Shown: piece after piece, positions 2,159-33,062 of the stretch | Layout of the letters: each line of letters opens with the position of its first letter | How positions within the stretch are numbered: the first letter of the stretch is position 1 | Source of the DNA: a bacterium | GTDB lineage: Bacteria; Patescibacteriota; Minisyncoccia; Phycocordibacterales; SBAW01 | DNA: 40,427 nucleotides | NCBI GenBank assembly: GCA_021839985.1 | Contig: JAKBZO010000005.1 | Span: 1-40,427 of the forward strand | Direction: 5' to 3' | Translations under genes and position numbers: made by a program | Notes under the pieces: model-generated | What the model was told of the DNA's origin: nothing | Databases searched by the model: none | What the model saw: the letters and a program-made list of their open reading frames with translations, nothing else

Positions 2159-3001
2159 ATGCCCACAGAAATGAAAACTAGACGAACACAGTCGATCGGG
2201 GTATTTGACTCGGGGTTCGGCGGGTTGTCGGTCCTCAAGGAGATCGTGAAGGCATTGCCCGAGTATGACTACGTGTATCTCGGCGACAATGCGCGTGCGC
2301 CGTACGGCTCGCGCTCAAAGGAGGTTGTGTATGAATTCACGAAGCAGGCGGTCGACTTCTTGTTCACGCACGGCTGCGACCTGGTTGTGCTCGCGTGCAA
2401 CACCGCGTCTGCCGAGGCGCTGCGCAAGATCCAGCGCGAGTATCTGCCGAAGAAATACGGACCGCATAAGCGCGTGCTCGGCGTGATCGTGCCAGCGATC
2501 GAAGAGACGGTCGTGCGGACGACGAACGGACGCGTCGGCGTCATTGCGACGCAAGGCACGGTCCGCTCCGGCGCTTTTTCTCGTGAGTTGAATAAGGCGT
2601 CTCCCGGCATACAAGTATTTGAACAAGCGTGTCCGCTTTTGGCGCCGCTGGTGGAAGCGGGCGAACATCGCTCAAAGACCGCCGATCTGATGCTCGCACG
2701 ATATCTCACGCCGCTTCTGCGCAAGCGCATCGACACGCTCGTGCTCGGCTGCACGCATTATGGCCATCTTGAGGGAAAGATCAGGAAGATCGTCGGCCAG
2801 AATGTCGCGATCATCTCAGAAGGAAAGATCGTCGCGAAAAAACTGCAGCAGTATCTCGTGCGGCATTCCGAGCTTGAAGGCGCGCTCGCGCGCAGATCGA
2901 AACTCAAGTTCTATTCCACTGACATCGGCGAGCGCTTCGACGACCTTGGCACGATATTCTTCGGCGCTCCGGTCGTTTCAAAAAAGGCAAAATTGGGCTA
3001 G
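2159..3001 (+). CDS. murI: Glutamate racemase
   Basis: IGVFDSGFGGLSVLKEI, YLGDNARAPYG, VLACNTASA, LGCTHY: MurI motifs. Start may be 2171. Confidence 0.95.
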   Translation: MPTEMKTRRTQSIGVFDSGFGGLSVLKEIVKALPEYDYVYLGDNARAPYGSRSKEVVYEFTKQAVDFLFTHGCDLVVLACNTASAEALRKIQREYLPKKYGPHKRVLGVIVPAIEETVVRTTNGRVGVIATQGTVRSGAFSRELNKASPGIQVFEQACPLLAPLVEAGEHRSKTADLMLARYLTPLLRKRIDTLVLGCTHYGHLEGKIRKIVGQNVAIISEGKIVAKKLQQYLVRHSELEGALARRSKLKFYSTDIGERFDDLGTIFFGAPVVSKKAKLG

Positions 3002-3010
3002 TATGGCTGC

Positions 3011-4345
3011 ATGCTCGGGTACCAAGAATTCTTCAGGGGCAAGAAGATAACCGTCATGGGGATGGGGCTCCTCGGCGGCGTGGGTGACATCCGCTTCTTG
3101 GCGGAGAATGGCGCCGACCTTATCGTGACCGATCTCAAACAAGAGAGCGAACTGTCTCCGTCGCTTGAGGCATTGCGCGAGTTCACTAATATTCGCTACA
3201 CGCTCGGCCGCCATGACCTTGCCGATTTTCAGGGTCGCGACCTGATCATTATGGCGCCGACGACACCGAAAGACTCGGTGTTCGTCGCCGAGGCACGATC
3301 GCACGGGACGCCGATCACGATGTGGGCGGCGCTCTTTTCGCGCTTCGCGCGCGAGGCGGGTGCGACGATCGTCGGCATCACCGGCACGCGCGGCAAGACG
3401 ACCACGACCGTGCTCATGGCGCAGACGCTCACGGCGGCTGGCAAGCAGGTGATCACGGGCGGCAATGTGCAGGGCACGGCGATCCTTTCGCAGCTCCCGC
3501 AGGTGACGCGCGACACGATCGTCGTGCTCGAGCTTGATTCGTGGAAACTGCAAGGCTTCGGCGAAGAAAAACTAAGTCCCGATATCGCGGTGTTCACGAC
3601 CTTCTATCCCGACCATCTCAATTACTATGGAGGCGATATGCAGGCGTACCTTGCCGACAAGGCGCTGATCTTTCTCAACCAGCGGCCGCACGACACGCTT
3701 ATCATCGGCGAGCAATGTGAGAAGATCGTGCAAGAGACCTACGAAGGCAAGATCCCGTCGCACGCGGTCGTGGCGTACGGTGATGACGTGCCGAGCGATT
3801 GGAGTCTGAAGATCCCTGGACAGCACAACCGCGACAATGCCGCGTGCGCGCTTTTTACGCTGCGCATTCTCGGCGTGGGCGAAGATGACATCAAGAAAAG
3901 TTTTGGAGCATTCACCGGTGTCGAGGGCCGTCTGCAGTTCGTGCGCGAGTTCTCTGGTGTGAAGATCTACAACGACACCACCGCCACCACGCCGGATGCG
4001 ACGATCGCCGCTTTGCGCGCGCTTGATCCTGAGGATAAAAAGAACATCGTGCTCATCATGGGCGGAGCGGATAAGGAGCTCGATATGACCGCGCTGATCA
4101 AGGAGATCCCCTTGCATGGTAAAAAAGTCATCATGCTTGACGGCACGGGAACGCAAAAGATGGCCCCGCAACTTGCGGGCTCTATGATATATCATAGTAT
4201 CGCCGAGGCAGTCGATGCCGCGATGGCGGCTGCGAGTGCAGGTGATATCATGCTCTTGAGCCCCGCGTTCGCATCATTCGGTATGTTCAAGAATGAATAC
4301 GATCGCGGCGACCAGTTCATGAAAATTATCAACTCACTGGAATAA
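3011..4345 (+). CDS. murD: UDP-N-acetylmuramoyl-L-alanine--D-glutamate ligase
   Basis: ITGTRGKTTTT P-loop, ELDSWKLQGF, FYPDHLNYY; Mur ligase of MurD type next to murI. Confidence 0.92.
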   Translation: MLGYQEFFRGKKITVMGMGLLGGVGDIRFLAENGADLIVTDLKQESELSPSLEALREFTNIRYTLGRHDLADFQGRDLIIMAPTTPKDSVFVAEARSHGTPITMWAALFSRFAREAGATIVGITGTRGKTTTTVLMAQTLTAAGKQVITGGNVQGTAILSQLPQVTRDTIVVLELDSWKLQGFGEEKLSPDIAVFTTFYPDHLNYYGGDMQAYLADKALIFLNQRPHDTLIIGEQCEKIVQETYEGKIPSHAVVAYGDDVPSDWSLKIPGQHNRDNAACALFTLRILGVGEDDIKKSFGAFTGVEGRLQFVREFSGVKIYNDTTATTPDATIAALRALDPEDKKNIVLIMGGADKELDMTALIKEIPLHGKKVIMLDGTGTQKMAPQLAGSMIYHSIAEAVDAAMAAASAGDIMLLSPAFASFGMFKNEYDRGDQFMKIINSLE

Positions 4346-6334: not shown

Positions 6335-7666
6335 ATGACCATGCATACTAGTCCCATAAAACTTATAACTTCTAATGGGGTGGAACTTCCGCGGCGCATT
6401 CATATCATCGGTATCGGCGGCATCGGTTTGTCAGCGCTCGCGCGCCTTTTGGTGCATCGTGGACATGTGATATCTGGCACCGAAGACAACCCCAGTCACG
6501 AGACGCTCGATGGCTTGCGCGCAGAGGGCGTCCCGATATCGGAAGACCTTGAACCCTCGCACCTGCCACAAGCCGAGTGCTATCTCTACAGCGACGCATG
6601 GCTTACTAAACACATTGCCGTGCTTGAGGAGGCGCGCCGGCGCGGCGCACTGACGCTTTCATATTTCGAAGCGCTTGGGCGCGTCGCGCAAGAGTATCAG
6701 GTGATTGCCGTCGCCGGCGCGCACGGCAAGACCACGACGACCGCGATGATGATCGACGTGGCTGAGGCAGGAGGGCTTGACCCGTCCGCTATCGTCGGCT
6801 CTCTGCGCGCAAAGACCGGCAGCAATTTTCGCGCGGGCGGTGGAGTGTATTTCATCGTCGAGGCAGATGAATACCGTCGCCACTTCCTTAACTTCACGCC
6901 GCACATTCTCATCATCACCAACATCGATGCCGACCACCTCGACTACTATAAAGACCTTGCTGACATTCAGAGCGCGTTTCGCGAGCTCGTGCAGAAGATC
7001 CCGTCGGATGGTTTCGTCGTGTGCGATCCAGACAATGCTGCGGTGAAGCCGGTGCTCGAGGGCGCTCACTGCACGATCATCGATTACGAAAAATATTTCG
7101 ATCCTCAGTTGCCCCTCAAGGTCTTGTCGCTGCATCGCATCAATGCTGCGGCCGTGCTTGCCGCAGCGCAGGTGCTCGGCATTTCGCAGGCGACCGCACG
7201 GCAAGCACTCGCTGACTTCACTGGTACATGGCGGCGCTTCGAATATAAAGGAACGACGAAAAGCGGTGCGATCGTGTATGACGATTACGGCCATCACCCG
7301 ACGGAAGTGAAGACGACGCTCGAAAGCGTGCGGCAGCAGTTTCAGGGCAAGCACCTCATCGTCGCATTCCACCCGCACCTGTATTCACGCACGAAGATAC
7401 TCATGAAAGAATTCTCGGAAGCGTTCGGCGCGGCGGATGACGTCATTCTCGCACCGATCTTTGCTGCGCGCGAAGCGCCGGACCCGTCGGTCACGAGCGA
7501 GATACTTGCGCAGAGGATCCGCGAGCATGGCACGCCGGCGCAGGCCATGAGCTCGCTTGAGCTCATCGCAGGGTACCTGGAGAACACCGCTGGGCCCGAC
7601 GACATCGTTCTCACTATGGGGGCTGGCGATATCTATAAAGTTGCAGAGACGCTCGTGAGCCGCTAG
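6335..7666 (+). CDS. murC: UDP-N-acetylmuramate--L-alanine ligase
   Basis: IHIIGIGGIGLSALA, AGAHGKTTTTAMM, NIDADHLDYY, YDDYGHHPTEVKTTL: MurC signatures. Confidence 0.96.
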   Translation: MTMHTSPIKLITSNGVELPRRIHIIGIGGIGLSALARLLVHRGHVISGTEDNPSHETLDGLRAEGVPISEDLEPSHLPQAECYLYSDAWLTKHIAVLEEARRRGALTLSYFEALGRVAQEYQVIAVAGAHGKTTTTAMMIDVAEAGGLDPSAIVGSLRAKTGSNFRAGGGVYFIVEADEYRRHFLNFTPHILIITNIDADHLDYYKDLADIQSAFRELVQKIPSDGFVVCDPDNAAVKPVLEGAHCTIIDYEKYFDPQLPLKVLSLHRINAAAVLAAAQVLGISQATARQALADFTGTWRRFEYKGTTKSGAIVYDDYGHHPTEVKTTLESVRQQFQGKHLIVAFHPHLYSRTKILMKEFSEAFGAADDVILAPIFAAREAPDPSVTSEILAQRIREHGTPAQAMSSLELIAGYLENTAGPDDIVLTMGAGDIYKVAETLVSR

Positions 7667-26328: not shown

Positions 26329-26378
26329 ATTGTGATATACTAAATGTCAAACAGGCCCGATCCGCTCTACCGACGCGG

Positions 26379-26408
26379 GAGGCCGAACCTTTTTAGAGGT
26401 TCGGCCTC
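26379..26408. terminator. Hairpin, likely terminator of the surface-protein gene or element structure
   Basis: GAGGCCGAACCT-TTTTAG-AGGTTCGGCCTC, perfect 12 bp. Confidence 0.6.
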
Positions 26409-26418
26409 TCTTCTTATC

Positions 26419-26452: not shown

Positions 26453-27079
26453 ATGAGACGTCGTGATTATAAAGAATTCGCTCCAGGAGTTTCGTACCAT
26501 ATCTATAACCGAGGTAACGGCAAGATGGATATCTTCAGGGACGAACAGGATTACTTGAACTTTCTCAGGCGTCTTCGTATTGCGCTTGGAAAGTCGCAGG
26601 GCGCCACCTCGTCGATCCGTCTTACCCCATTCGATCCGAGTTTCTTCTCACTCATCGCATACTGCCTCATGCCGAACCATTTTCACTTCCAGATCAAGCA
26701 GTGCGGGGAAGTGCCGCTTGGAAAACTCCTACTCAAGGTGTGCACCAGCTACTCAATGTACTTTAATAAGAAATATGACCATGTCGGACATGTGTTCCAG
26801 GATCAGTTCAAAGCCGTTCCTATACAGACAGATGGTCAAGCGATCGCGCTGTCCGCGTATATCCACCAGAATCCGAAAGTCGCAAGGTTTGCAGATGCGC
26901 CCGAACAATGGGCGTACAGCAGCTACCAAGATTACATCGGCTCTCGACACGGGAATCTTATCGACCCCAGCTTCATACTCACGCAGTTTACGGATAGGAA
27001 GGCGTATAAGGCCTTTGTCGATGAAAGTTTTGAAGACATCCTTGAGTATAAGAACATCGGGAAACTTATTCTAGATTAA
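26453..27079 (+). CDS. REP-associated tyrosine transposase (RAYT, Y1_Tnp/IS200-like)
   Basis: SYHIYNRGNGKMDIFRDEQDYLNFLRRL, LIAYCLMPNHFHFQIKQ (HUH), VGHVFQDQFKAVPI, ALSAYIHQNPKVARFADAPEQWAYSSYQDY. Confidence 0.92.
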   Translation: MRRRDYKEFAPGVSYHIYNRGNGKMDIFRDEQDYLNFLRRLRIALGKSQGATSSIRLTPFDPSFFSLIAYCLMPNHFHFQIKQCGEVPLGKLLLKVCTSYSMYFNKKYDHVGHVFQDQFKAVPIQTDGQAIALSAYIHQNPKVARFADAPEQWAYSSYQDYIGSRHGNLIDPSFILTQFTDRKAYKAFVDESFEDILEYKNIGKLILD

Positions 27080-27086
27080 AGCCTGC

Positions 27087-27134
27087 CCCCAACAAGGGGC
27101 ACCCTTGTGTTCACAAGGGTGCCCCTTGTTGGGG
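27087..27134. repeat. REP-like hairpin pair, right of transposase
   Basis: CCCCAACAAGGGGCACCCTTGTG-TT-CACAAGGGTGCCCCTTGTTGGGG, 23-bp perfect inverted repeat. Confidence 0.92.
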
Positions 27135-29385: not shown

Positions 29386-30222
29386 ATGGTAACAGACGAA
29401 CAAGTACGCAGCATCGAGCAACAAGCGCTCGCGATCCGCGAGACGATCATCACGATGCTCGTTGAAGCAAAGAGCGGCCACACGGCGGGGCCTTTGGGCA
29501 TGGCGGATATCTTCGCCGCATTCTACTTTCATATTCTCAAACACGATCCGCACAATCCGCAGTGGGAAGATCGCGATCGCCTATTTCTCTCCAACGGTCA
29601 CATCACGCCGGTGCGCTATGCGACCATGGCGCACGCCGGATACTTTCCCGTCGAGGAATGTATGACGCTGCGCAAATTCGGCAGCCGCTTGCAAGGACAT
29701 CCGGAGCGCGAGCGCTTGCTTGCGGTGGAGACGACATCCGGGCCGCTCGGCAGCGGGCTTGGTCAGGCATCCGGCTACGCGCTCGGCGCGCGCATGGATG
29801 ACAAGAAATTCCGCGTGTACTGTCTCATGAGCGACGGCGAACAAGATGCGGGCAATACCTGGGAGGCGGCGATGTTCGCGGGTAACAATAAACTTGCTAA
29901 CCTCACGGCGGTGATGGATCGCAACAACATCCAGATCGATGGCGTGACGGAAGTGGTGATGCCGCTTGAACCGCTCGCCGATAAGTACCGTGCATTCGGC
30001 TGGCATGTCATCGAGGTCGATGGGCACAACATCCGGCAGTTCATCGCTGCGATCGACGAAGCGCATGCGATCGTCGAGAAACCGACGCTCATCATGGCGC
30101 ATACGATCCCCGGCAAGGGCGTGCCGGATATCGAGTATGATTATCGCTGGCACGGCAAGCCGCCGACCAAAGAAGAAGGCGAGAGATTTTTAGCGCAATT
30201 GCGACAAACCTATGCTCAATAA
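29386..30222 (+). CDS. Transketolase, N-terminal (TPP-binding) subunit
   Basis: AKSGHTAGPLGMADIFAAFYF, DRLFLSNGHITPVRYA, TTSGPLGSGLGQASGYALGARM, MSDGEQDAGNTWEAAMFAG. Confidence 0.94.
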   Translation: MVTDEQVRSIEQQALAIRETIITMLVEAKSGHTAGPLGMADIFAAFYFHILKHDPHNPQWEDRDRLFLSNGHITPVRYATMAHAGYFPVEECMTLRKFGSRLQGHPERERLLAVETTSGPLGSGLGQASGYALGARMDDKKFRVYCLMSDGEQDAGNTWEAAMFAGNNKLANLTAVMDRNNIQIDGVTEVVMPLEPLADKYRAFGWHVIEVDGHNIRQFIAAIDEAHAIVEKPTLIMAHTIPGKGVPDIEYDYRWHGKPPTKEEGERFLAQLRQTYAQ

Positions 30223-31198
30223 CACACTCAAACTCCGCGAAGATCTTTTTGATGCTTCGGAGCAGAAGCCGACGCGCGATGGTTTCGGTTCTGCGATGAT
30301 GGAGCTCGGCGAGAAAGAGCCGCGCGCGGTGATCGTGTGCGCCGATCTTGCGGAGTCGACGCGCGCGCTCGCATTCAAAATGAAATATCCAGCGCGCTAC
30401 ATCGAGATGGGCGTTGCGGAGCAGAACATGGCGACGGTGGCAAGCGGTCTCGCTAACTACGGCAAGATTCCGTTCATGGCGTCGTATGCGGCATTCTCAC
30501 CGGGGCGCAACAACGAACAGATCCGCACGACGATATCGCTCAATGATGTGCCCGTTAAGATCATGGGCATGCATGCGGGCGTGTCGGTCGGCCCCGACGG
30601 CGCAACGCATCAGGCGCTTGAGGACATGGCGCTCATGCGCGTGCAGCCCAATATGATCGTGATCTCGCCGTGCGACGCGATCGAAGCGCACAAAGCGGTG
30701 CTCGCGGTCGCGCACAATGGCAAGCCGTCGTATGTGCGCTTCGCGCGCGAGAAGACGCCGGTCATGACGACCGTTGAGACGCCATTTGAGATAGGGAAGG
30801 CGAATGAAATGTGGCGCAGTGCTGCGCCTAGTGTGGCGGTCTTTGCGATCGGCCCGCTTCTCTTTGAAGCGCTGAAGGCGGCGCGCGATCTTGATGCGCA
30901 AGGTATCGGTTCGGTCGTCGTGAATGTGCATACGGTCAAACCACTTGATGAGGAGGCGGTGGAGCGCGCGGCGCGCGAGTGCGGTGCCGTCGTCACGGTT
31001 GAAGAACATCAGATCGCGGGCGGACTTGGCGGCGCGGTCGCAGAGGCACTCGCGCGCCGCGCGCCCACGCCCATCGAATTCATCGGCGTCCATGATCGCT
31101 ATGGCCAGTCGGGCGAACCAGCAGAGCTCCTGCGCGAATACGGTCTCGACGCGCAAGCGATCAGCGAGGCAATGAAAAAAGTCATCGCGCGAAAATAG
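30212..31198 (+). CDS. Transketolase, C-terminal subunit
   Basis: RDGFGSAMMELGEKEPRAVIVCADLAEST, YIEMGVAEQNMATVASGLANYGKIPFMASYAAF; 11-nt overlap with the N-terminal subunit. Confidence 0.94.
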   Translation: MLNNTLKLREDLFDASEQKPTRDGFGSAMMELGEKEPRAVIVCADLAESTRALAFKMKYPARYIEMGVAEQNMATVASGLANYGKIPFMASYAAFSPGRNNEQIRTTISLNDVPVKIMGMHAGVSVGPDGATHQALEDMALMRVQPNMIVISPCDAIEAHKAVLAVAHNGKPSYVRFAREKTPVMTTVETPFEIGKANEMWRSAAPSVAVFAIGPLLFEALKAARDLDAQGIGSVVVNVHTVKPLDEEAVERAARECGAVVTVEEHQIAGGLGGAVAEALARRAPTPIEFIGVHDRYGQSGEPAELLREYGLDAQAISEAMKKVIARK

Positions 31199-31276: not shown

Positions 31277-31322
31277 TTCTCTTTCCACTTCCGTGACGAC
31301 CGTCACGGAAGTGGAAAGAGAA
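31277..31322. repeat. Left hairpin flanking the PaaX/Cas2-like gene
   Basis: TTCTCTTTCCACTTCCGTGACG-AC-CGTCACGGAAGTGGAAAGAGAA, perfect 22 bp. Confidence 0.92.
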
Positions 31323-31371
31323 AATGATCCCCATCTCTCATAGTATATTTAGTATATTCATAAACCTTGTT

Positions 31372-31986
31372 ATGAATAACAAAATAAATTCTATCGAATA
31401 CAGGATCTCGCGCCTTACAAGACGTCAACGCACGCAGGACATAGTTCTCATGTCTTTGTATACGCTGAGCGTTTTGGGTGTTGGTATTGTGGCACCGAAC
31501 GCGCTTCAGTTGTTTAAGTATGTTGAAAAATATTTGCCGCAGAAGACAAATATAAAGACTCGCACAAGTCAGGCGATCACTCGGCTGGTTGCCAAGGGCT
31601 TGGTTGTGCGTACAAAAAATGCGGGGCGTACGGTATTACGACTCACACGAAAGGGGAAAGAAGCTGCAAACGCTATCGAAATACGGCAAAAGGTCAGTCC
31701 GCAGAAACCGAAACGCTGGGATGGTAAATGGAGGATCGTGATCTTTGATGTTTGGGAAAAACGTCGAAGTGTCCGGAACAAGCTCCGAATCATGCTGCAC
31801 AATACGGGCTTCGTAAAGATCCAACACAGTGTGTGGGTCTATCCATATCCGTGTGAGGATCTGTTTGTGTTCTTGCGAGCAGACTTGCGGTTGGGACAGG
31901 GTATGCTCTACATTGTTGCAGACGAGATAGAGCACGATGCGCGCCTGCGCCAACACTTCGGCTTACCCGCTTCGCTGTCCTCATAA
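31372..31986 (+). CDS. PaaX-like protein: winged-helix N-terminus plus Cas2-like ferredoxin-fold C-terminus
   Basis: NIKTRTSQAITRLVAKGLVVRTKNAGRTVLRLTRKG (wHTH) and KWRIVIFDVWEKRRSVRNKLRIMLHNTGFVKIQHSVWVYPYPCEDLFVFLRADLRLGQGMLYIVADEIE (Cas2-like). Alternative start 31324. Confidence 0.8.
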   Translation: MNNKINSIEYRISRLTRRQRTQDIVLMSLYTLSVLGVGIVAPNALQLFKYVEKYLPQKTNIKTRTSQAITRLVAKGLVVRTKNAGRTVLRLTRKGKEAANAIEIRQKVSPQKPKRWDGKWRIVIFDVWEKRRSVRNKLRIMLHNTGFVKIQHSVWVYPYPCEDLFVFLRADLRLGQGMLYIVADEIEHDARLRQHFGLPASLSS

Positions 31987-32030
31987 TCATATTCCACTTA
32001 TGCGACGACCGTCGTATAAGTGGAATATGA
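31987..32030. repeat. Right hairpin flanking the PaaX/Cas2-like gene
   Basis: TCATATTCCACTTATGCGACG-AC-CGTCGTATAAGTGGAATATGA, 21-bp stem with one G.T position; begins at the base after the stop codon. Confidence 0.92.
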
Positions 32031-32072: not shown

Positions 32073-33062
32073 CTACAGGAGTGGCGTGAGTTTGTAGCTC
32101 TCCGGCGCCTCCGCGAGCAGCTTCTCGATCTGCTCTCGCGTGAAGAGGCCTTTTTGCGCGCCGATCTCTTGAACCACACCCATCGCATTGATCGGTCCCC
32201 ACAGAAGTGCTTGCTCAAGCGGCAGTCCGAGCGCGAGGGCGGCGACCACGGTCGAGGCGAATGCATCGCCGGCGCCGGTGCGCTCGAACGGCGGCTTGGG
32301 GTCGGGATACATCGGTATGTTCCACATCCGGTCCTGCTCATCGAGCACATAGGCGCCGAAGTGGCCGTCGGTGATGACGACGATCTTGGGTCCGAGCGCG
32401 CGCAGCTCGCGCAAAAGCTCGCGCGAGTCCTCGCTGCTGGAGCCCGTGATGATCTGCGCTTCTTCTTTGTTGCAGAAGAAGATATACGTGCGGGCGTAGA
32501 TGTCGCGCAGCGCTTCTGCGCCGAACTTTATTTGGAACGTCCCCGGCTGGAACGCGAGCTTGGTGTCCGGCCATGCGGCGAACTGTGCGGCGAGCTGTGC
32601 GTGGTAGGGAAGCGAGTTGCCGCTGAGTGATGAGAGATACACCCATGCTGGCGCCTCCGCGGCCTTCGGCGTCGTGTAATCGAACATCTCGTGTTTGATG
32701 AGAATGGTGCGCTCGTCTTCGAACCACAGCACGAAGTGGTAGTTGGTGTGCTTGCCATCCTGCGTCTCCATGAGAGCAGTGTCCACGTCCGCCACCTTCA
32801 GTGCGTCGAGGCACCGCACGCCATGCTCATCATTACCGACATACGCATGCAGTGCGGCAGGAACGCCGAGCTTTGCCGCAGCGACGGCGGCATTGGAGGC
32901 ATTGCCGACCGCGGGTACCTCGACCGAATATTCAAATGGTATTTTGTCGGCAAAGCGCATGCAGAGCGTTGGGTGCTCGGGGTCGCCAGTGACCTGCGCC
33001 TCCTTGAGACGGATGAAATTATCGATAACGATGTCGCCGATAGCAAGAATATCATTCTTCAT
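32073..33062 (-). CDS. PfkB-family carbohydrate kinase
   Basis: VGNASNAAVAAAKLGVPAALHAYVGNDEHG, PFERTGAGDAFASTVVAALALG. Confidence 0.92.
   Translation of the reverse strand: MKNDILAIGDIVIDNFIRLKEAQVTGDPEHPTLCMRFADKIPFEYSVEVPAVGNASNAAVAAAKLGVPAALHAYVGNDEHGVRCLDALKVADVDTALMETQDGKHTNYHFVLWFEDERTILIKHEMFDYTTPKAAEAPAWVYLSSLSGNSLPYHAQLAAQFAAWPDTKLAFQPGTFQIKFGAEALRDIYARTYIFFCNKEEAQIITGSSSEDSRELLRELRALGPKIVVITDGHFGAYVLDEQDRMWNIPMYPDPKPPFERTGAGDAFASTVVAALALGLPLEQALLWGPINAMGVVQEIGAQKGLFTREQIEKLLAEAPESYKLTPLL

Follow-up and report, generated by a model that had tools for sequence, protein, structure and literature searches.

The window, by which we mean the whole 40,427-nucleotide stretch analysed here, belongs to a 736-kb draft assembly of a patescibacterial genome (G000). 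At 31277-32030 (+) it holds a cassette of three parts (palindrome, gene, palindrome), which sits between two convergent genes outside the element: the C-terminal part of a transketolase (tkt, 30212-31198, +), which served in the empty-site test described below, and a PfkB/ribokinase-like gene (pfkB, 32073-33062, -). The left palindrome (31277-31322) has 22-bp arms that are 100% complementary around a centre of AC, with CGACCG at 31297-31302. The right palindrome (31987-32030) has 21-bp arms, also centred on AC, with CGACCG at 32006-32011 and a single G.T pair, the one exception that the original prediction had noted. Neither palindrome is assigned a strand. They share the pattern TTCCACTT-N4-GACGACCGTC-N4-AAGTGGAA, which is exact at 31283-31316 and 31992-32025, and their RNA folds have energies of -37.2 (left) and -30.2 (right) kcal/mol, with z about -10. 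The two long hairpins are thus where they were claimed to be and far beyond chance, as 100 shuffles of the window gave an expectation of 0 for the shared pattern.

The gene between them (31372-31986, +) encodes a 204-aa protein with a winged helix-turn-helix (wHTH) and a Cas2-like domain. The longest open reading frame is 31324-31986 (220 aa, open from an ATG at 31324), but homology with the rest of the family sets in only around residue 14-23, so 31372 is plausible as the predicted start. The last base of the stop codon is 31986, and the right palindrome therefore opens at the very next base, as predicted. A possible -10 element of the gene, TATATT (31344-31349, +), can be read directly from the sequence downstream of the left palindrome, where it had been reported. 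In keeping with the label "CRISPR-less", Cas1 was not found in the G000 genome (94.6% complete). A repeat search of the 2.5 kb around the gene gave no CRISPR array.

The protein and its Cas2-like domain

Profile searches agree with the original domain call: the window protein matches PaaX_M, which is Cas2-like, with E=1e-18, and it scores 29.9 bits against the CRISPR Cas2 family TIGR01573 (cut-off 24.5). Its score against the PaaX equivalog TIGR02277 is 42.4 bits where the cut-off is 264.6, and it is not a full PaaX. PaaX-family repressors (TIGR02277; PDB 8a39) have the same order of parts, a winged helix followed by the PaaX_M domain. However, the proteins studied here are only ~200 aa long, no further domain was found in them (including the PaaX C-terminal part), and they do not belong to a catabolic operon.

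Among 76 family members, all 76 match PaaX_M and 69 match the PADLOC Cas2 model, while Y1_Tnp is not among the matched families. Residues G111, W132, D133, W136, R137, F141, D142, R151, G162, Q167, P174, C177 and F212 are conserved in at least 90% of members and S169 is invariant; the Cas2 signature (D142, R151, Q167, S169) stands at 99-100%. The best-conserved His column in the family alignment reaches just 34%. An AlphaFold model of the window protein (pLDDT 86) has a long N-terminal helix, a winged helix and a Cas2-like fold. Its nearest solved structure is PaaX 8a39 (E 2e-5), then come winged-helix proteins, and Cas2 structures match weakly (about 0.025).

E. coli PaaX aligns with the family but has D142, R151, Q167 and C177 replaced, and Rv0674 lacks the Asp. 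Judged by alignment, then, the family keeps Cas2-like residues that are missing in these two PaaX relatives, and this is the main ground to suspect catalysis. We know of no catalysis by PaaX-type Cas2-like domains.

CRISPR Cas2 proteins (TIGR01573, PF09827) resemble the window protein in their fold, its profile score being above the NCBIfam cut-off, as well as in the Asp that ends strand 1, the Q.SV block and the palindromic repeats that adjoin the gene. Here, however, the domain is fused to a winged helix, and the repeats bracket the gene instead of forming an array with spacers. With no Cas1 in the genome, this is not a CRISPR Cas2 system.

Palindromes around the gene and across the genome

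Relatives of the window gene were collected with one similarity search seeded with the window protein. Among 118 related genomes, 45 carry between one and seven of them, and in a phylum-wide sample of 287 genomes they turn up in 88 (about a third), with as many as 11 in one genome, i.e., the distribution is patchy and multicopy. All of these genomes are drafts, so contigs come from draft assemblies, and gene and open reading frame calls were simple.

Across 90 oriented loci, palindromes scoring at least 13 lie within 150 bp of the gene in 39 of 88 left slots and 46 of 87 right slots, whereas at distances of 150 to 750 bp only 0-4 of 80-88 slots per 150-bp bin have one. Nearly all of the near-gene palindromes are built on a few symmetric hexamer centres: CTATAG, CGRYCG, CTATCG, CATATG and the CATG type. 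Using a motif-centred score, 62/90 loci have such palindromes on both sides, and the left and right copies are far more alike at one locus (identity 0.85) than between loci (0.40). Loci from the phylum-wide set have such pairs as well (e.g., L186, L189, L193, L199 and L200). The remaining 28/90 miss the both-sides threshold, and loci that at first seemed empty carry imperfect palindromes, with the left copy often over a -10 box. In the sister genus (g2), imperfect palindromes that overlap the -10 box are numerous, and in L053 and several other relatives the left palindrome itself overlaps a TATAAT-like box. The E. coli paaX control has no such palindromes. When mapped onto the protein tree, the palindrome centre class needs 20 changes (shuffled mean 33.5, minimum 27; Mantel 0/1000), so it tracks the tree. 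The expectation that copies would flank PaaX/Cas2-like genes is thus borne out and reaches across the phylum, which strongly supports reading the hairpins as mobile-element ends or binding sites.

We considered carriage by plasmids or phages and rejected it: PLSDB and INPHARED gave no match, and IMG/VR gave one weak relative (L269), which has no palindromes.

A pattern search of the G000 genome, which had been proposed as a check, found eight copies of the palindrome: the pair in the window and six "solos". A "solo" in this context is a copy that does not flank a gene of the family, of which G000 has a single one (by PaaX_M). About 357 kb of G000 was also read in stretches. The congener G002 has seven copies, of which one pair brackets the orthologous gene and most of the rest occupy orthologous sites. 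Solos of the cognate palindrome were present in 13/13 genomes examined. In the eleven besides G000 and G002, the palindrome of at least one gene was searched in its own genome and gave one to eight solos per family; for G110 and a few families, nothing matched beyond the copies at the gene. Copies are therefore dispersed, but instead of hairpins spread genome-wide with no link to these genes, we found one wHTH-Cas2-like gene per palindrome family.

Except for one within a predicted open reading frame, solos are intergenic. Their gaps are codirectional, convergent and divergent in 27, 8 and 8 cases, compared with 46, 15 and 15 for background gaps; the orientation classes are the same, so solos are not concentrated at promoters. 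This bears on the reading in which the protein is a PaaX-type repressor of its own gene. Its operators would be the palindromes, one at the promoter of the gene, one at the 3′ end and a few elsewhere as a regulon, and ordinary horizontal transfer would have spread the gene. In favour of this reading, the protein's relatives in fold and sequence are PaaX regulators, recognition of duplex DNA would call for a symmetric, conserved centre such as is seen here, and genus g2 has a left site that overlaps a TATAAT box, with a spacer that need not pair, as expected of an operator. The left palindrome is near or over the promoter in many loci. However, the 3′ copy and the solos have no promoter bias, and a matching second copy follows the stop codon again and again. 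An operator also has no need for its non-conserved positions and locus-specific outer arms to pair, and the family retains Cas2 signature residues that E. coli PaaX lacks. We consider this reading rather unlikely, though it is a main rival.

Only 4/71 palindrome copies have a T-rich tail on either strand, which argues against bidirectional transcription terminators between genes. The hairpins are strong, and convergent genes flank some of them, the window pair included, but the left copy is upstream of its own gene's promoter. Moreover, the centres are restricted to symmetric hexamers of a few kinds, and ordinary terminator-like hairpins of G000 have other loops. Terminators are thus scarcely credible. 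The RNA element offered in the original prediction is also unlikely, because the left copy lies outside the transcript and the solos lie between genes in all orientations. We rejected it, with Rfam giving only sub-threshold hairpin look-alikes.

By inspection, no bases are conserved outside the palindromes, either in 15 copies of the window family or in 56 copies of ten other families. This matters for another reading, in which the palindromes are REPs moved in trans by co-resident Y1/HUH transposases (RAYT-like) and the wHTH-Cas2 gene is a passenger or the repressor of those transposases. Y1_Tnp genes are common enough to be candidates (11/12 genomes tested), and the window has one at 26453-27079. 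However, the inspected copies have no common tag outside the palindrome, G002 (83% complete) yielded no Y1 gene despite its seven palindrome copies, and the RAYT-like gene in the window adjoins different hairpins (26377-26410 and 27087-27134). The palindromes flank wHTH-Cas2 genes, and each gene's palindrome has a sequence of its own that tracks the protein tree; mobilisation in trans is accordingly quite improbable.

The Y1_Tnp/RAYT-like gene itself (26453-27079, +) encodes 208 aa and lies 4.2 kb upstream of the cassette; the strong hairpins on each side of it have no core in common with the cassette palindromes. Elsewhere, a Y1_Tnp gene remnant (G088:C16:5923-6150) lies near the right palindrome of the wHTH-Cas2 cassette L111.

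Empty sites and the origin of the paired arms

The original prediction had asked whether orthologous loci lack the whole unit, and in G003 and G001 they do. G000 and G002 carry the cassette between tkt and pfkB, while in G003 only 11 bp, with neither cassette nor palindrome, separate these genes, in G001 they are neighbours that likewise lack both, and in G004 they are also together without the cassette. Solos of G000 at the secY|gmk, uvrC|ddl and L162 junctions are similarly missing in G003 and/or G001. The absence of both cassette and solos at orthologous sites points to insertion. For the tkt|pfkB cassette, gain appears the simpler reading with G004 as outgroup. Several palindrome sites and the cassette are held in place in both G000 and G002, so movement is not frequent.

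None of the insertion junctions was read to the exact base. We looked for a constant target duplication and rejected one of fixed length: outer direct repeats of at least 17 bp occur in just 4/62 loci, at inconsistent distances (control maximum 14). A search of G002 with the flank of the palindrome in the uvrC region returned only other palindromes and short repeats. Exact direct repeats do flank individual cassettes (21 bp at L092, 18 bp at L125 and 17 bp at L069; control pairs reach at most 14). At L054 (G001), the cassette follows fusA, and a second, diverged coding end of the EF-G C-terminus lies on the other side, 89 bp right of the gene; the two EF-G ends share 26 bp exactly. This duplication is as in 3′-end-targeted integration or import by recombination.

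The original prediction took two hairpins that differ in sequence while each pairs with itself as a sign that the fold is selected. The observation extends to all 15 copies in G000 and G002: none of them varies in the eight- and ten-base blocks, and 10/10 variable pairs outside the blocks have double changes, giving 41 double-change cells compared with 15.1 when shuffled (0/500). When the register is slid, pairing collapses. Orthologous palindromes of G000 and G002 differ by compensatory changes, e.g., C-G to T-A and G-C to A-T. Both gene-flanking copies have their centre flipped from AC to GT, for which two transitions, we infer, would suffice inside the RY constraint. Recombination between the two palindromes was tried as a candidate and rejected, the gene having the same orientation in G000 and G002.

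Perfect hairpins can arise, and be repaired, through template switching in replication (PMC8794818), so complementary variation alone is no proof of selection on the fold. Within a genome the palindrome core is constant, while the outer arms are locus-specific yet complementary; examples from G095 are CCAAACCCAAAT-core-ATTTGGGTTTGG and CCCCCCCACCAT-core-ATGGTGGGGGGG. Pairs depart from the commonest one 211 times in 11 families, counting the mismatch in which each stem has to end, and 111 of these departures are Watson-Crick double changes. Two G095 loci (L254 and L255) have 184 bp in common, comprising the left flank and the core, and the match ends exactly at the core edge. Beyond that edge, L254 continues as the mirror of its own left flank and L255 diverges. 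Similarly, on contig C23 of G000 the 12-base arm TCTCGCGCCCGA mirrors the right flank, and the C26 version is without that mirror. Several families have mirrored flanks that fit template switching.

Perfect pairing could therefore be purely mutational, with template switching copying one arm over the other and extending into the flank, in which case covariation is silent on function. The described mechanism and the mirrored flanks in G095 and G000 favour this reading. However, it leaves unexplained why the palindromes bracket one gene family, why the core is invariant within a genome and differs between genomes, and where the solos come from, so we lean somewhat against it as a complete account. 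As the source of the mirrored arms, it can hold alongside the explanation we prefer. Of the earlier interpretation, then, the link between gene and hairpins and the mobile-element or binding-site readings stand, while the RNA element and covariation as proof of selection are weaker points.

Comparison with known systems and a possible mechanism

REPtrons are REP palindromes associated with TnpA_REP (RAYT), a Y1-HUH protein (PMC8266576, PMC2817692, PMC3116915). The system described here resembles them in several ways: one small protein gene is flanked by its own palindrome, the palindrome is dispersed between genes, protein and palindrome co-diverge, and the gene has a low copy number. It differs in that the protein is wHTH + Cas2-like with no HUH motif, and the palindromes are longer (40-60 bp), near-perfect, built on a fixed symmetric centre (CGRYCG/CTATAG) and extended by locus-specific paired outer arms. 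Furthermore, the tetranucleotide tag at the foot of REPs (GTAG/CGTC) was not seen, and there are about 3-10 copies, not hundreds. The HUH transposase, a defining feature of REPtrons, is absent, so this is not a REPtron. IS200/IS605 elements also have a single small gene between hairpin-forming ends, but here there is no HUH chemistry and no TnpB, solo hairpins are abundant, and the ends are full palindromes of 40+ bp.

Our preferred explanation, to which we give a probability of roughly 55%, is a REPtron-like mobile or domesticated system run by the wHTH-Cas2-like protein. The architecture is observed: a small gene bracketed by two copies of its own 40-46 bp palindrome, which is dispersed as solos too. 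Binding, cutting and movement are inferred. The protein would bind the palindrome as a dimer: its winged helices would contact the conserved blocks of the arms, and the paired Cas2-like domains would sit on the symmetric centre (CGRYCG or CTATAG type). It may then cut or nick at the centre, perhaps on extruded hairpin or cruciform DNA, so that palindromes could move into new intergenic sites, as could the whole cassette, though less often. Copying around the hairpin would mirror neighbouring bases into the other arm and so keep pairing perfect. Under this explanation, the palindrome-bracketed Cas2-like gene is probably mobile. The protein probably also represses itself in some lineages, because there the left copy overlaps the promoter. 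Counting against the explanation are the missing constant target duplication, the infrequent movement, the loci below the both-sides threshold, the operator-like sites of the sister genus and the repressor PaaX as nearest solved structure.

More tentatively, this may be an undescribed class of mobile element in Patescibacteria-type bacteria, in which the single wHTH-Cas2 protein is the recombinase or nuclease. It would recognise its own long palindrome, cut it at the centre, mobilise both palindrome and cassette, and produce the mirrored arms wherever they land. In the open-access literature we found no description of it: neither PaaX mentioned with Cas2, nor a Cas2-like winged-helix protein with palindromes. 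To our knowledge, none of the transposable elements or REP-like systems described relies on a protein with the Cas2 fold.

If this is true, it places a Cas2-fold nuclease linked to palindromic repeats within a mobile element free of CRISPR, which bears on the origin of Cas2 and of CRISPR repeats; the unsolved origin of Cas2 would gain a testable relative that is associated with palindromic repeats outside CRISPR. Confirmation would also mean that 88 of the 287 sampled genomes of the phylum carry a new gene/palindrome system, and it would account for one set of "PaaX family regulator" annotations in streamlined genomes. Even under the repressor reading there would be something new: a regulator found across the phylum whose palindromes are paired and perfect and have mirrored arms. 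Protein-DNA specificity is directly testable, because every gene comes with a palindrome of its own.

Reading G000 also brought out other repeats. A second dispersed palindrome family with the centre CTTAAG (ACTCATTCTAATGTTCTTAAGAACATTAGAATGAGT) occurs at L155:1251-1292, 1551-1594 and 6881-6918 and at L157:2821-2870, two of its copies being 300 bp apart; no cognate gene for it was found in G000. Single long palindromes with other arms lie at L157:1337-1396, L159:12510-12565 and L152:18177-18214 (centres CGGTCG, CTATAG and CGGCCG), as if they were the remains of lost members of the gene family.

Two regions of the same G000 assembly, C23:1-3974 (L157) and C26:9901-13323 (L158), are homologous and 86% identical, and this metagenome-assembled genome probably mixes two related strains or species. 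At L157 (C23) 2475-3063, the 3′ end of tRNA-Ala (TGC) occurs three times (ATCTCCTCGGGTCCACA and degraded copies) around ~500 bp missing in C26, which looks like the remnants of tRNA-targeted integration. Low-complexity repeats of the AGCTTTTAG/CTAAAAGCT type, which are quasi-palindromes, occur at L157:290-485 (uvrC), L150:7774-7840, L153:1851-1919 and L154:19529-19600. Some of these repeats sit within the uvrC coding sequence, and their length differs between the two strains.
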